DNA from: a virus
Length of the DNA: 43,940 nucleotides
Virus record (IMG/VR): IMGVR_UViG_3300044707_000492
Coordinates: 1-43,940 of that record
Reading direction: 5' to 3' (one strand)
Below are positions 4,061 through 39,357 of this stretch, in pieces. A model generated the notes under the pieces. That model was not told the DNA's origin. It saw only the letters and a list, made by a program, of their open reading frames with translations, and searched no databases. The position numbers and the translations under genes are program-made. Within the stretch, counting starts at the first letter, position 1. Every line of letters starts with the position of its first letter.

Positions 4061-4387
4061 ATGAGAACGATACGGGTATATGAAGAGATTATCACTCATG
4101 AGTCGGCTGAAAATGGGGACTATGAATCAAGCGAACTCTATCGTGAGATAGAGATTGATTCAGAAGAGGATTGCGTCTTTGAAGCTAGACGGGAGATAGA
4201 GTCGTTCGGTCACGTTGAACCTTCTTCTTTTCCTTTTTGCGTCGGTTCATGGTATCGGACAACAGACGCAGATGTGGATTATTTAACAAATGATCGTGCG
4301 TATTACACGATCCATCTTGATGGATTCACGGATGAGGAGGAGGAGTCGATTTACGATCTGCTGAAAGCAGATAGATATGTGTCCTGA
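4061..4387 (+). CDS. Acidic hypothetical protein
   Basis: A 108-aa, strongly acidic protein of unknown function (EITTHES-type N-terminus, YREIEIDSEEDCVFEARREIE, TDEEEESIYDLL). It could be a DNA mimic or an inhibitor of a host enzyme, but nothing beyond charge supports that. The start follows TGGAGAG. The end (YVS-stop) lies in module copy J. Confidence 0.65.
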   Translation: MRTIRVYEEIITHESAENGDYESSELYREIEIDSEEDCVFEARREIESFGHVEPSSFPFCVGSWYRTTDADVDYLTNDRAYYTIHLDGFTDEEEESIYDLLKADRYVS

Positions 4388-4411
4388 ATCGCTTTCAATG
4401 TCGGTGTCGGT
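4381..4411 (+). repeat. Intergenic repeat module, copy J
   Basis: GTCCTGA - ATCGC - TTTCAATGTC - GGTGTCGGT. The ATG at 4398 inside it is in frame with the gene at 4449. Confidence 0.8.
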
Positions 4412-4448
4412 ACTGATCGTAGCCACAACTAACACAACGGAGATTGAT

Positions 4449-4799
4449 ATGAGACAAGTATCTAAGACGGTTATCACTGCATTTTTGAAGGGCGAAAACA
4501 AGACTGTAGGTAATACCAAAACGGACGGTAATGCTCTTTTTCTGCACGGAAATATGATTGCATTAAAGGATGATTGTTTTTTGCGTATTTCCTTTTGCGG
4601 CTGGAATACAGTCACTACACGGGATAGACTTAATTCTCTTCTTTTTTTAGCTCCTGAATATGGCTATCAAATGGATATTACAGGGGTATGTCAGCGTGAT
4701 TTCACGCCCTGTCTGTTTATGGCAAGCGGTAGTATCCGGGAAGTTGACGATATTGGGTATTACGACGCCGCCACCCTAAAGGGTGTATTGGTGTCCTGA
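4449..4799 (+). CDS. Hypothetical early protein
   Basis: A 116-aa protein of unknown function. It appears to be an all-beta or alpha/beta domain (GNTKTDGNALFLHGNMIAL, CFLRISFCGWNTVTTRDRLN) ending in a strand-rich tail. The N-terminal half (FLKGENKTVGNTKTDG) resembles phage proteins annotated only as hypothetical. The ribosome-binding site is ACGGAG. The end (LVS-stop) is encoded in module copy K. Confidence 0.65.
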   Translation: MRQVSKTVITAFLKGENKTVGNTKTDGNALFLHGNMIALKDDCFLRISFCGWNTVTTRDRLNSLLFLAPEYGYQMDITGVCQRDFTPCLFMASGSIREVDDIGYYDAATLKGVLVS

Positions 4800-36404: not shown

Positions 36405-36435
36405 AAACCGTGGGCCATGATGATCCCCACGGTTT
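36405..36435 (+). promoter_or_regulatory. Leader hairpin 1 of replication operon
   Basis: AAACCGTGGG (36405-36414) pairs with CCCACGGTTT (36426-36435), loop 11 nt. It falls at the predicted 5' end of the transcript. The A-run before it gives a U-run on the minus strand, so it may terminate leftward transcription. Confidence 0.5.
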
Positions 36436-36497: not shown

Positions 36498-36530
36498 ACC
36501 AACAGCTTCATTATGCCCGAAGCTGTTGGT
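36498..36530 (+). promoter_or_regulatory. Leader hairpin 2, perfect 12-bp stem
   Basis: ACCAACAGCTTC (36498-36509) and GAAGCTGTTGGT (36519-36530), loop 9 nt, about 30 nt before the initiator ATG. No U-tail. It is a candidate translational control element or protein site. Confidence 0.5.
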
Positions 36531-36558: not shown

Positions 36559-37629
36559 ATGAAAGAATCGTGCGACAGGTTTGTAGTTATTCGTCACGCC
36601 ATTTACGAGAAGTGCGAGACGTTGCTTGAGGCGAACATCTACGCCTACATTGAGGGCTGGCAGACATCACTTAGCCAGTCATGCGTGGAGTTGTACGCCG
36701 GAATTGCTTTAATGTCGCAACTGTTCAAGGTTTCAGAGCCAACAATCAAGCGTGCATTGGCTCGGATGACTGACACTGGATTAATTGCAAAAAAGAGAAC
36801 TCAGCGAGGCATGATCTACACAACGAATGTAGATGTGGCTGCCCGCTGGGAGAAAACCAGACAGATCAAAAACGAAAACCAGACAGATCAAAACGATCTA
36901 TCAGACAGATCAAAACGATCTGACAGACAGATCAAAATGATCCCTCAGACAGATCAAAATGATCCCTCTTCTTATAAGACTAATAATAAGACTCTTCATA
37001 AGAACAACTACAACCTCCCCCTACCCCCTCAAGGGGGGCGAGGAGGAGTTGGGGTGGGAGATTCATCATCCTCAGAAATCCAAAGCCAGCCTTCAGCGTC
37101 CCAGTCTGATTTCAATTCCGGTACTGGACTACCACGAACTCATGCGTTTACGGAGCCAGTAACAAAACCCATGTCACTCAGGTACAGCGAGAGTCAGAGG
37201 AATCTGATTTCGCAGGTACTGGGAGCATCTGGTGGCGAGACAAAGCTCGGCCAGTTCCTCAAGCAAGAGATGGCTGACAAGCCGGGCTTCTTGGAGTATT
37301 GCCTGAATGAAACCTTGAAAAAGATGAAGTCGGGCAAGATGACAGGGCTACCGTTTGCTTATCTCAGACAGGTTGTTGGCAATCAGTGGAACAACGGAGA
37401 GTGGATCAGCCCGGCTGTTGTCCAATCAAACGCCGATCTTGAGGAAGTCTTGGCGGCTATGGAAAGGCCCATCAATCGGCTCGACCTCACAGATGAGGAA
37501 CACACTGAAAAACTCAATGCTATCCGGGCGGAAGTCGCCTCTAATCCCAGCTTGACAAAAGCGTTGATGCTGAGATTTGCAAACGCATACACAATGAAAA
37601 TACTTGACAGAAGGGAATTAGCTATATGA
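36559..37629 (+). CDS. Replication initiator with helix-turn-helix domain and internal origin
   Basis: A 356-aa protein. The N-terminal part is a winged-helix replication-initiator type domain (ANIYAYIEGWQTSLSQS, LSQLFKVSEPTIKRALARM, TDTGLIAKKR). Residues about 98-135 are low complexity (RQIK, QTDQND, SDRSK recurring) because the DNA there holds five 22-bp iterons read in different frames. The C-terminal half is helical. The layout matches lambda O-type initiators, which bind iterons inside their own gene and recruit the helicase or loader. The ATG follows GAGGGAATATC; the stop overlaps the next ATG. Confidence 0.75.
   Translation: MKESCDRFVVIRHAIYEKCETLLEANIYAYIEGWQTSLSQSCVELYAGIALMSQLFKVSEPTIKRALARMTDTGLIAKKRTQRGMIYTTNVDVAARWEKTRQIKNENQTDQNDLSDRSKRSDRQIKMIPQTDQNDPSSYKTNNKTLHKNNYNLPLPPQGGRGGVGVGDSSSSEIQSQPSASQSDFNSGTGLPRTHAFTEPVTKPMSLRYSESQRNLISQVLGASGGETKLGQFLKQEMADKPGFLEYCLNETLKKMKSGKMTGLPFAYLRQVVGNQWNNGEWISPAVVQSNADLEEVLAAMERPINRLDLTDEEHTEKLNAIRAEVASNPSLTKALMLRFANAYTMKILDRRELAI
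36858..37010 (+). other. Putative replication origin: five iterons plus AT-rich region
   Basis: CAGACAGATCAAAA occurs at 36858, 36880, 36902, 36924 and 36946, always exactly 22 bp apart. Four copies extend into a following GATC. An AT-rich stretch follows (36969-37010, including CTTATAAG and TAATAATAAG), as in a DNA-unwinding element. Because 22 is not a multiple of three, the repeats are read in all three frames, so DNA rather than protein is conserved. Confidence 0.85.
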
Positions 37630-38306
37630 GCCTTCGCCCAAGTCCAAGACAGCAAATGCAAATACAAGAGGTGTTTGCGTTCTTTGGTTTCGAAGCAGAA
37701 TATGAGGCGGTAGCAAACGCCCAACTGGATTCGTGGTATTGGTTCTTCGAAAAGAACAATTTCACTGATTTTCCGGCACTTTTTGAGCAGTATCGAAACC
37801 TCTTCTATTCGCAAAAGGTAACAGACCCTTACAAGCTGATGATCATGTTCGGCAGATTTATCAAGGAGAATCCTACAGTCGCCTCTGTGTTCTTTGAGGA
37901 TCGATTGAAGTATGTCGAATGCGATTATTGCGAGGGGCACGGCGTGGTAATGATACCTGTGATTGGCCGCGATCACATTGAACGGCCAAAAGCATTTCGC
38001 TGCTGCTGCGCTAAAGGCAAGATACAATTTGCCGGGATACCTGAACCAACCGAAGAGATGATGGAGTGGCGAATACGGGAAAACCGCCGGGAAAACCAGA
38101 AGGCACGGGTGTATCTTCAGGGTTTGGGGCTTGACCCTGACCGTTGCACCTTTGCTGACATGTGGAAAAAGCTCCAGACGGCCCGTGGGCCGATGTTCAC
38201 AAACGTATCCGACCTCTCCAAGCCGGTTCCAGAGAGAAAAGTGGTAGAAAAAAGTAGTGTGGTACTGAATAGCACCACTGAGGGGGCTGTGGCATGGAGC
38301 TTCTGA
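37626..38306 (+). CDS. Zinc-finger protein, possible helicase loader or replication partner
   Basis: A 226-aa protein directly coupled (ATGA) to the initiator. The N-terminal half is helical (RQQMQIQEVFAFFGFEAEY, FPALFEQYRNLFYSQ). A metal-binding cluster follows (CDYCEGHG ... RCCCAKG, near residues 99-126), resembling a DnaJ-type CxxCxGxG half. The C-terminal part is helical and basic. Its place right after the initiator suits a helicase loader, but no ATPase motif is present; the role is inferred from order only. Confidence 0.55.
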   Translation: MSLRPSPRQQMQIQEVFAFFGFEAEYEAVANAQLDSWYWFFEKNNFTDFPALFEQYRNLFYSQKVTDPYKLMIMFGRFIKENPTVASVFFEDRLKYVECDYCEGHGVVMIPVIGRDHIERPKAFRCCCAKGKIQFAGIPEPTEEMMEWRIRENRRENQKARVYLQGLGLDPDRCTFADMWKKLQTARGPMFTNVSDLSKPVPERKVVEKSSVVLNSTTEGAVAWSF

Positions 38307-38674: not shown

Positions 38675-39119
38675 AGCGTGGAAACAGCGCGAAAGAGAGG
38701 CGGCAAAAGCGTTCGGTGCCTTGAGGAACATTGGCTCCGGCTCGCAGGGCAGGCCCGACAAATCCATGTCAGACAGCACGCACGACCGTCTTTATATTGA
38801 GGTCAAACTTAGAAAAAAGCACACCGCCGTGACGTTGCACGACGACACCAAATCAAAGGCAATTAAGGAACACAAAGTGCCCGTGGTTCTGCTGGCTGAG
38901 GCTAACAGGCCGGGATTTTGGATATTGGTTCACGAACGGAATCTGGCCGAAGTGGCGGCAATGTACCGTCCCGGCCAAGTTTCAAACACCGATGAAGGGA
39001 GTAAGCACCATGTTGAGACGGAAACGAGCAAAGAAACCGAGCAAGTCAGGGTGGCTAACGCTGGCCAGAAAGATCTCGGAGCCTGTTTATATTCTGACCC
39101 CCTCGGGCGACAGAATTGA
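38664..39119 (+). CDS. Holliday-junction resolvase-like PD-(D/E)XK nuclease with extended C-terminus
   Basis: A 151-aa frame. The first about 105 residues fit a resolvase-type fold: a basic helix (KQREREAAKAFGALRNIGSG), an Asp in PDKSMSDSTHDR, then LYIEVKLRKK (ExK) and VPVVLLAEANRPGFWILVH. The remaining residues arise because an intergenic repeat copy at 38965 has CAA where other copies have the stop TGA. The frame therefore runs on into the CsrA-like gene by 110 nt. In related phages it would probably end near MYRPG. Confidence 0.65.
   Translation: MGNKAWKQREREAAKAFGALRNIGSGSQGRPDKSMSDSTHDRLYIEVKLRKKHTAVTLHDDTKSKAIKEHKVPVVLLAEANRPGFWILVHERNLAEVAAMYRPGQVSNTDEGSKHHVETETSKETEQVRVANAGQKDLGACLYSDPLGRQN
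38965..38992 (+). repeat. Intergenic repeat module, remote copy with lost stop
   Basis: CCGTCCCGGCCAAG - TTTCAAAC - ACCGATG, matching copies B and D at 1392 and 2092 except that CTGAG has become CCAAG. Confidence 0.6.
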
Positions 39120-39357
39120 ACTGGTTGTCACCGAGATAACAAGCGAACACTGCGTAAGGCTGAGTTTCAACGCACCAATTGAATACAAAGTGTTGCGTCA
39201 CGATGTCCGGGATGCGCACGGCGTGAAGCTGCACGAAAGGATGGGGGTGAGTGAGTCTGCCCAAGAAAATAACCAAAGCGGCCCAAGCACAGAACGAGGC
39301 TGTCTTGACAGGGATCTGGGCAACGATGGCGAACAACTTGACCGAAGCACTTCATAA
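39010..39357 (+). CDS. csrA: CsrA/RsmA-like translational regulator
   Basis: A 115-aa frame. Residues 15-65 fit CsrA: WLTLARKISEPVYILTPSGD, RIELVVTEITSEHCVRLSFN, APIEYKVLRHDV. These align with the L-x-L-x-R-K-x-G-E, I-x-V-x-x-I, V-R-x-x-x-x-A-P and V-x-R-x-E-V signature, keeping the Leu/Arg and C-terminal Arg that contact GGA RNA. A basic N-terminal extension precedes the fold and a polar tail follows. CsrA dimers bind ANGGA motifs and repress or stabilise mRNAs. The ATG at 39010 follows AAGGGAG. Confidence 0.75.
   Translation: MLRRKRAKKPSKSGWLTLARKISEPVYILTPSGDRIELVVTEITSEHCVRLSFNAPIEYKVLRHDVRDAHGVKLHERMGVSESAQENNQSGPSTERGCLDRDLGNDGEQLDRSTS

Follow-up and report, generated by a model that had tools for sequence, protein, structure and literature searches.

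A phased array of GATC-armed inverted repeats inside an initiator gene marks a probable replication origin in an orphan phage

Introduction

The origins of lambdoid phages were reportedly compared by Grosschedl and Hobom. For bacteriophage λ, a passage of PMC5043065 describes each iteron as an inverted repeat bound by a dimer of the O protein, with the iteron DNA being bent and the neighbouring A+T-rich region opening upon O binding, and a passage of PMC3985674 describes O dimers on adjacent iterons as building the O-some. Origins inside initiator genes are already known for λ and have been inferred for phage 80α. In the relevant section of PMC5499656, the failure of 80α ORF20 to complement in trans is taken as a sign of an embedded origin, an origin embedded in the initiator gene is ascribed to both 80α ORF20 and SPP1 G38P, and λ O is called unrelated to these two. 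The iterons of RepA_N plasmids, according to the part of PMC7145576 that also gives PF06970 as the accession of the family, are semi-palindromic direct repeats in which inverted repeats converge on a poly-A tract, and the initiators have an N-terminal DNA-binding domain; a section of PMC8263062 states that in PLEs the RepA_N domain and the origin covary.

Here we analyse a viral record of 43,940 bases (this whole stretch of DNA is referred to as the window) that carries a phased array of repeats inside a putative initiator gene. As in λ and the lambdoid phages P22, HK225 and Sf101, the array follows directly on the part of the gene that encodes the N-terminal DNA-binding domain, and consists of phased inverted repeats with an A-rich centre and an AT-rich stretch on their 3′ side. 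The first-pass annotation of the window had pointed to λ as a phage that keeps its origin within the O gene, and the annotated λ iterons indeed show the same layout as those of the window. The five-base centre of λ iteron 1 (TCCCTC-AAAAC-GAGGGA) is identical to that of AGATC-AAAAC-GATCT in the window while the arms differ, an A-rich stretch follows the λ iterons, and a 9-base core, TCAAAACGA, is common to the iterons of both. This core and its variants in other copies, read in three frames, give QN[D/E], SK[R/Q] and [I/P]K[T/N/M] in the linkers of both proteins.

The two arrays differ in that λ has four iterons at 20–24 bp with CCCTC-type arms, whereas the GATC-armed array of the window comprises four dyads and one half site in steps of exactly 22 bp. 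The proteins differ as well: λ O matches Pfam Phage_rep_O (PF04492) at 5.7e-36, whereas the window protein has no match to this family at E ≤ 0.1, such that the description of the locus as lambda-type holds for its layout and fails for its protein family. Pfam RepA_N (PF06970) is likewise not matched by the window protein at E ≤ 0.1, although a PLE RepA structure is among the fold matches described below, and the origin of the PLE satellites is intergenic, unlike the intragenic array of the window. With 80α ORF20 and SPP1 G38P the likeness, taken from their description, is the embedded origin.

Results

Five iterons at exact 22-bp steps lie within the initiator gene

The initiator open reading frame (ORF) occupies positions 36559–37629 on the plus strand and encodes 356 residues: an N-terminal winged helix, a linker encoded by the iterons, and a C-terminal region that belongs to no known family. 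Within it, the five copies of a 14-mer at exact 22-bp steps that the first-pass annotation had picked out are real; the 14-mer, CAGACAGATCAAAA, begins at 36858, 36880, 36902, 36924 and 36946, the copies span 36858–36959, and the whole record holds no further exact copy. TRF reports one array at 36858–36968 with a period of 22 and five copies, and when up to 3 mismatches are allowed the 14-mer has 12 matches in the window against 4.9 ± 1.9 in shuffles. The 14-mer is exact in all copies, but the conserved unit is longer than had been proposed, as 18 of 22 positions are identical in copies 2–5. These copies read CAGACAGATCAAAA[C/T]GATC and contain a dyad, AGATC-AAAA[C/T]-GATC, so that the inverted repeat GATCAAAANGATC is present in four of the five copies (at 36886, 36908, 36930 and 36952). 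Copies 2 (36880–36901, core 36886–36898) and 3 (36902–36923, core 36908–36920) have the five-base arms AGATC/GATCT around AAAAC, and copies 4 (36924–36945, core 36930–36942) and 5 (36946–36967, core 36952–36964) read GATC-AAAAT-GATC. Copy 1 (36858–36879) is a left half site only, its right arm (GATC) being absent. All five lie on the plus strand, and copies 2–5 differ from each other only at position 15 and positions 20–22, none of which falls within a GATC arm.

Steps of 22 bp do not correspond to a whole number of codons, so that the reading frame shifts from copy to copy: the copies start in frames 2, 0, 1, 2 and 0 of the ORF and encode, in order, RQIK, QTDQN, DRSK, RQIK and QTDQN. This had been noted before, together with the suggestion that conservation acts on the DNA rather than on the protein. 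We generated 20,000 synonymous versions of the same protein, with codon usage taken from seven ORFs of the window, and none of them contained at least three 14-mers or at least four dyads (observed, 5 and 4, respectively). This result agrees with conservation at the DNA level and shows that the repeats are not a by-product of the protein sequence. A recent tandem duplication is unaffected by the recoding and must be judged from other genomes.

An AT-rich element had also been placed beside the array, and positions 36965–37012 (plus strand) are in fact 71% AT and contain the lowest-GC 40-mers of the initiator ORF (25% GC). The hexamer ATAAGA occurs in this stretch at 36974, 36986 and 36998, i.e. 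in 12-bp steps. The composition and the 12-bp period, which recurs after the iterons of other initiator genes (see below), make it a probable DNA unwinding element; sites as AT-rich occur elsewhere in the window, where 85 40-mers in all have a GC content of at most 25%. Cumulative GC skew, which had been put forward as a check on the position of the origin, was not diagnostic, as it stays flat over the first ~35 kb and rises thereafter, with no turn at 36.9 kb.

Two perfect inverted repeats, which resemble a terminator or operator, lie in the gap that precedes the initiator gene, at 36405–36435 (10 bp, with 11 between) and 36498–36530 (12 bp, with 9 between).

The initiator has a predicted winged-helix domain and no close kin in the collections searched

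AlphaFold2 models residues 1–98 (36559–36852), from an alignment of 21 rows, as a winged-helix DNA-binding domain with a mean pLDDT of 71, helices at 49–56 and 60–72 and strands at 76–81 and 84–89; a model of the whole protein reached a pLDDT of 42 and was set aside. The model and the relatives together place the recognition helix and its cap at residues 59–72 (36733–36774), beginning with S59-E60-P61-T62-I63-K64-R65. The fold matches of the modelled domain are winged helices of many kinds, including ArsR/MarR regulators and origin-binding ones; the N-terminal domain of PLE RepA (4ro3_B) aligns over 85 residues with a Z score of 8.1 and an rmsd of 2.5, and many other winged helices are alike in this respect.

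At the sequence level, the whole protein has weak matches to the PHROG profiles phrog_428 (1.7e-7) and phrog_7498 (2.4e-7), which are replication initiation and DnaD-like families. Residues 1–98 alone score 1.9e-5 with phrog_7498 and 0.0024 with phrog_428, a drop which indicates that the iteron-encoded linker contributes to the score of the whole protein. A sequence search of solved structures gave nothing convincing for the protein, full-length relatives were absent from the phages, viral contigs, genome contigs and plasmids searched, and no DNA-level relatives, near or distant, were found among the phages searched. The iterons of the window therefore cannot be traced in close kin. Its N-terminal domain is 13–24% identical to 20 domains of initiators of the phrog_6493, phrog_11233 and phrog_428 types, and sits on a long branch in a tree of these domains.

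Overlapping the stop codon of the initiator is an ORF of 226 codons (37626–38306, plus strand), which sits where λ has P and to which we ascribe a possible role by position only; it matches no Pfam or PHROG family, and a search with it returned no relatives. Neighbouring genes encode an ERF annealing protein, a YqaJ/RecE-like exonuclease and an integrase, and a search with the ERF protein found one distant locus. Rfam and tRNA scans of the window were empty.

The layout recurs in initiator genes of other families

We assembled 52 initiator genes, comprising those of 24 known phages, that of the window, and those of 27 viral contigs. Two protein searches of a phage collection gave 472 and 156 records, from which 25 loci were fetched; 23 of these and λ were used, L355 (no annotation) and L363 (split gene) being left out. 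A search of viral contigs with the N-terminal domain of one initiator gave 80 loci, of which 27 are non-redundant at 90% identity.

Spacings between [CG]AAA[AT] words in the 52 genes cluster at 22 bp (35 pairs) and 23 bp (28 pairs), neither of which is a multiple of three, whereas the lags of 9–21 and 24–43 bp have 0–12 pairs each; a second heap lies at 44–47 bp. The repeated words fall mostly at nucleotides 280–490 of the gene in the known phages and in the window, and among all 52 genes the A-centred dyads at nucleotides 300–479 number 67 in the sense of the gene against 9 in antisense. Over whole genes the excess above shuffles is about twofold (51 against 21.8, and 57 against 27.7). Under the rule used, 41 of the 52 genes have phased A-tract words and 11 have none; five known phages (VibK2, PseAF, PaeUSP25, Suso and BcepMigl) have no sense A-centred dyad. 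The arms in these relatives include GGTC, GGGC, GATC, TATC, GCTC and GGCC with the layout unchanged, and thus relatives with other iteron sequences at the same spacing, which the first-pass annotation had predicted, do occur: A-tract words at 22–23 bp are combined with different arms. Another 13 A-centred dyads in sense orientation gather at nucleotides 180–239, perhaps reflecting conserved codons.

Among the genes that share the layout are initiators of the phrog_6493, phrog_11233 and phrog_428 types from Staphylococcus, Bacillus, Listeria, Escherichia and Pseudomonas phages, which are annotated as DnaD-like helicase loaders or replication initiation proteins. Like the window, they have C-AAAA[T/C]-G dyads at 22–23 bp in the linker that follows the winged helix, and GATC arms occur in several of them; unlike in these initiators, the winged helix of the window is divergent, as described above.

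In the 41 genes with phased words, the 60 nucleotides after the last such word show excess identity at lags of 12 (p = 6e-9) and 24 (p = 1.4e-4) and none at a lag of 15, and their GC content is slightly lower (0.379 against 0.414, p = 0.02). Since 12 is a multiple of three, causes at the level of the protein are possible for these downstream repeats. Directly after the iterons of six initiator genes (L356, L357, L358, L359, L360 and L368) we observed repeats of TACAGAGA at 12 or 24 bp, which encode TE(T/N/I)TTE-like peptides and are common to Escherichia, Providencia, Pseudomonas and Klebsiella phages.

In searches with the repeat pattern itself, an exact three-iteron pattern had no match in viral contigs, and a looser one, GATCAAAANGATCN{4,20}GATCAAAA, matched 44 viral stretches and at least 117 stretches in genome contigs. 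We analysed 124 of these at least 161 loci (L008–L131) and read 37 of their ORFs. Many of the loci are 9-bp coding repeats or sit in unrelated genes, making pattern matches alone poor evidence, and because GATC was in the query all of them were left out of the covariation tests. In three loci (L016, L028 and L032) the GATCAAAANGATC pattern lies close to the start of a small ORF of 152 codons that is not initiator-like, and an Acinetobacter contig (L109, 4320–4446) carries GATCAAAA 14 times at 9 bp, which is a coding repeat and differs from the iterons. We also considered whether GATC arms might be a general feature and rejected this: none of 30 phrog_428 prophage loci (L200–L229) has a cluster of GATC-AAAA dyads.

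The recognition helix covaries with the iteron arms

Rows pairing a recognition helix with its arms were called automatically, requiring at least two phased CAA[AT][AT]NG cores and a half-site agreement of at least 0.6, with other loci dropped. This yielded rows for 10 of 25 loci in set A, 72 of 84 in set B, 2 of 91 in set C (prophage loci L169–L259, many of which are weak or partial family matches) and 44 of 59 in set V; merging of near-identical rows left 53 rows and the window. The window was kept out of the covariation statistics, and its arms were known before the rules below were stated.

Across the 53 rows the helix reads S-x1-x2-T-[IVL]-[K/R]-R, and the residue at the [K/R] position goes with the outer base of the arm: arginine occurs with T in 11 of 11 rows, and lysine accompanies a purine in 41 of 42 rows. 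When x2 is proline, the arm is GATC in 6 of 6 rows, against 5 of 47 for other residues at x2. When 20 helix positions were scanned against five positions of the arm, K/R with base 1 ranked top (z = 20.4) and x2 with base 3 next (z = 9.2), with x2–base 4 (z = 6.6) and x1–base 3 (z = 6.2) lower down; base 1 is also associated with the residue that follows the motif by two places (z = 7.9). For bases outside the arm, z is at most 3.2. On a tree of the domains from which the covarying residues were masked, a tree-aware likelihood test (custom script) supports correlated change with p = 1.9e-5 for K/R–T and p = 0.0023 for P–GATC on what is a poorly resolved tree; five bootstrap trees gave p of 1e-5 to 3e-4 and about 0.001, respectively. 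An independent-pairs test on the tree (treekit) found 1–2 supported pairs.

The lysine/arginine and proline rules were first seen in sets A, B and C, and set V was fetched afterwards. In set V lysine goes with a purine in 21 of 22 rows, arginine with T in 1 of 1 and proline with GATC in 3 of 3, in a set that leans to ESTIKR helices because the query held that motif and that includes one locus (L375) sharing a contig with a locus of set B (L298). Helices with ES are mixed at the inner bases; S-E-S-T-I-K-R is found with AGGTC, GGGTC, GGATC, GGTTC and TGGTC in set V, which means that residues beyond the motif must matter too. In the window, the positions that covary with the arms in relatives are E60 (x1), P61 (x2) and K64 (K/R). 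Its motif, S59-E60-P61-T62-I63-K64-R65, predicts GATC with an outer purine, and its arms are AGATC, fitting both rules. We found no report of a residue-to-base code for phage initiators in the open-access literature searched.

Discussion

The array and the adjoining AT-rich stretch are, with a probability that we put at about 0.9 on the strength of the sequence comparisons, a replication origin within the initiator gene, arranged as in λ, at which winged-helix dimers of the encoded protein would bind the dyads and the AT-rich stretch would open. This is in line with the first-pass annotation, and DNA-level conservation, the λ layout, the recurrence of that layout in several PHROG families and the covariation of helix and arms all point the same way, from which we infer initiation at this site. 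The winged-helix domain would recognise AGATC-AAAA[C/T]-GATC as a dimer. By analogy with λ, the four dyads would be occupied on one face of the helix, where bound dimers could stack because the dyads repeat every two helical turns. The stacked dimers would bend and wrap the DNA, the adjacent stretch with its 12-bp repeats would open, and the helicase would be loaded there as replication initiates.

The array might instead be a recent tandem duplication, a coding minisatellite that plays no part in replication. Slippage would yield five near-identical copies in one array, and no close kin were found that could show its age. Yet slippage would have to account for differences among copies 2–5 that are confined to position 15 and positions 20–22 and spare the GATC arms, for the recurrence of gene position, spacing and dyad layout with other arms in initiators of other families, and for arms that covary with the recognition helix, and we consider it very improbable. 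Similarly little weight attaches to the idea that the winged-helix protein represses its own operon, or segregates the prophage, through an operator or partition site, with the origin elsewhere. Winged-helix regulators and partition proteins do bind dyads, and both ArsR/MarR regulators and origin-binding winged helices are among the proteins that the model resembles; the site, however, lies 300–400 nt inside the gene and away from the promoter, is followed by AT-rich DNA with a 12-bp repeat, a feature that other initiator genes share, and has recombination genes as its neighbours.

The GATC content of the arms raises one more reading, that this is primarily a control site of the Dam-methylation or SeqA type at which an initiator site is incidental. 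The nine GATC sites within ~100 bp of the array form the densest GATC cluster of the window, and GATC is frequent throughout, with 273 occurrences against ~172 expected (simple arithmetic, at 1 in 256 over 43,940 bases). Against this stand the non-GATC arms of the relatives at the same layout, which indicate that GATC is the arm that goes with the helix of the window rather than a general feature, and the absence of a Dam gene among the ORFs scanned in the window. We regard a methylation-centred role as exceedingly unlikely.

These results locate a likely origin of replication for an orphan phage, in a layout that recurs in phages of Enterobacteria, Pseudomonas, Staphylococcus, Bacillus and Listeria, the initiators of which are assigned to different families. 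The layout itself was known, and the link between residue and base is the interesting part. With site and reader in one gene, each genome constitutes a natural pair of a DNA-binding helix and its target, and the lysine/arginine and proline rules make initiator specificity, and hence replicon compatibility, testable from sequence. We lean towards the view that origin-carrying phage initiators share one site grammar (arm-C-AAAA[T/C]-G-arm′, phased at 22–23 bp and followed by 12-bp repeats) and a readable recognition code, in which x1 and x2 specify the inner arm bases and K/R the outer one, and that profile similarity between the linkers of unrelated initiators is partly similarity of DNA sites seen through codons. 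If so, the origin could be predicted from the protein and the protein from the origin.

Elsewhere on the plus strand of the window, an ORF at 38992–39357, in the phage replication region, matches CsrA, a carbon-storage-type RNA-binding regulator (PF02599, E = 1.1e-7, above the Pfam cut-off), and matches to a PDDEXK_14 endonuclease (4.1e-8) and to Kyano_Gp96 (1.1e-9) lie at 251–712 and 4377–4796, respectively.
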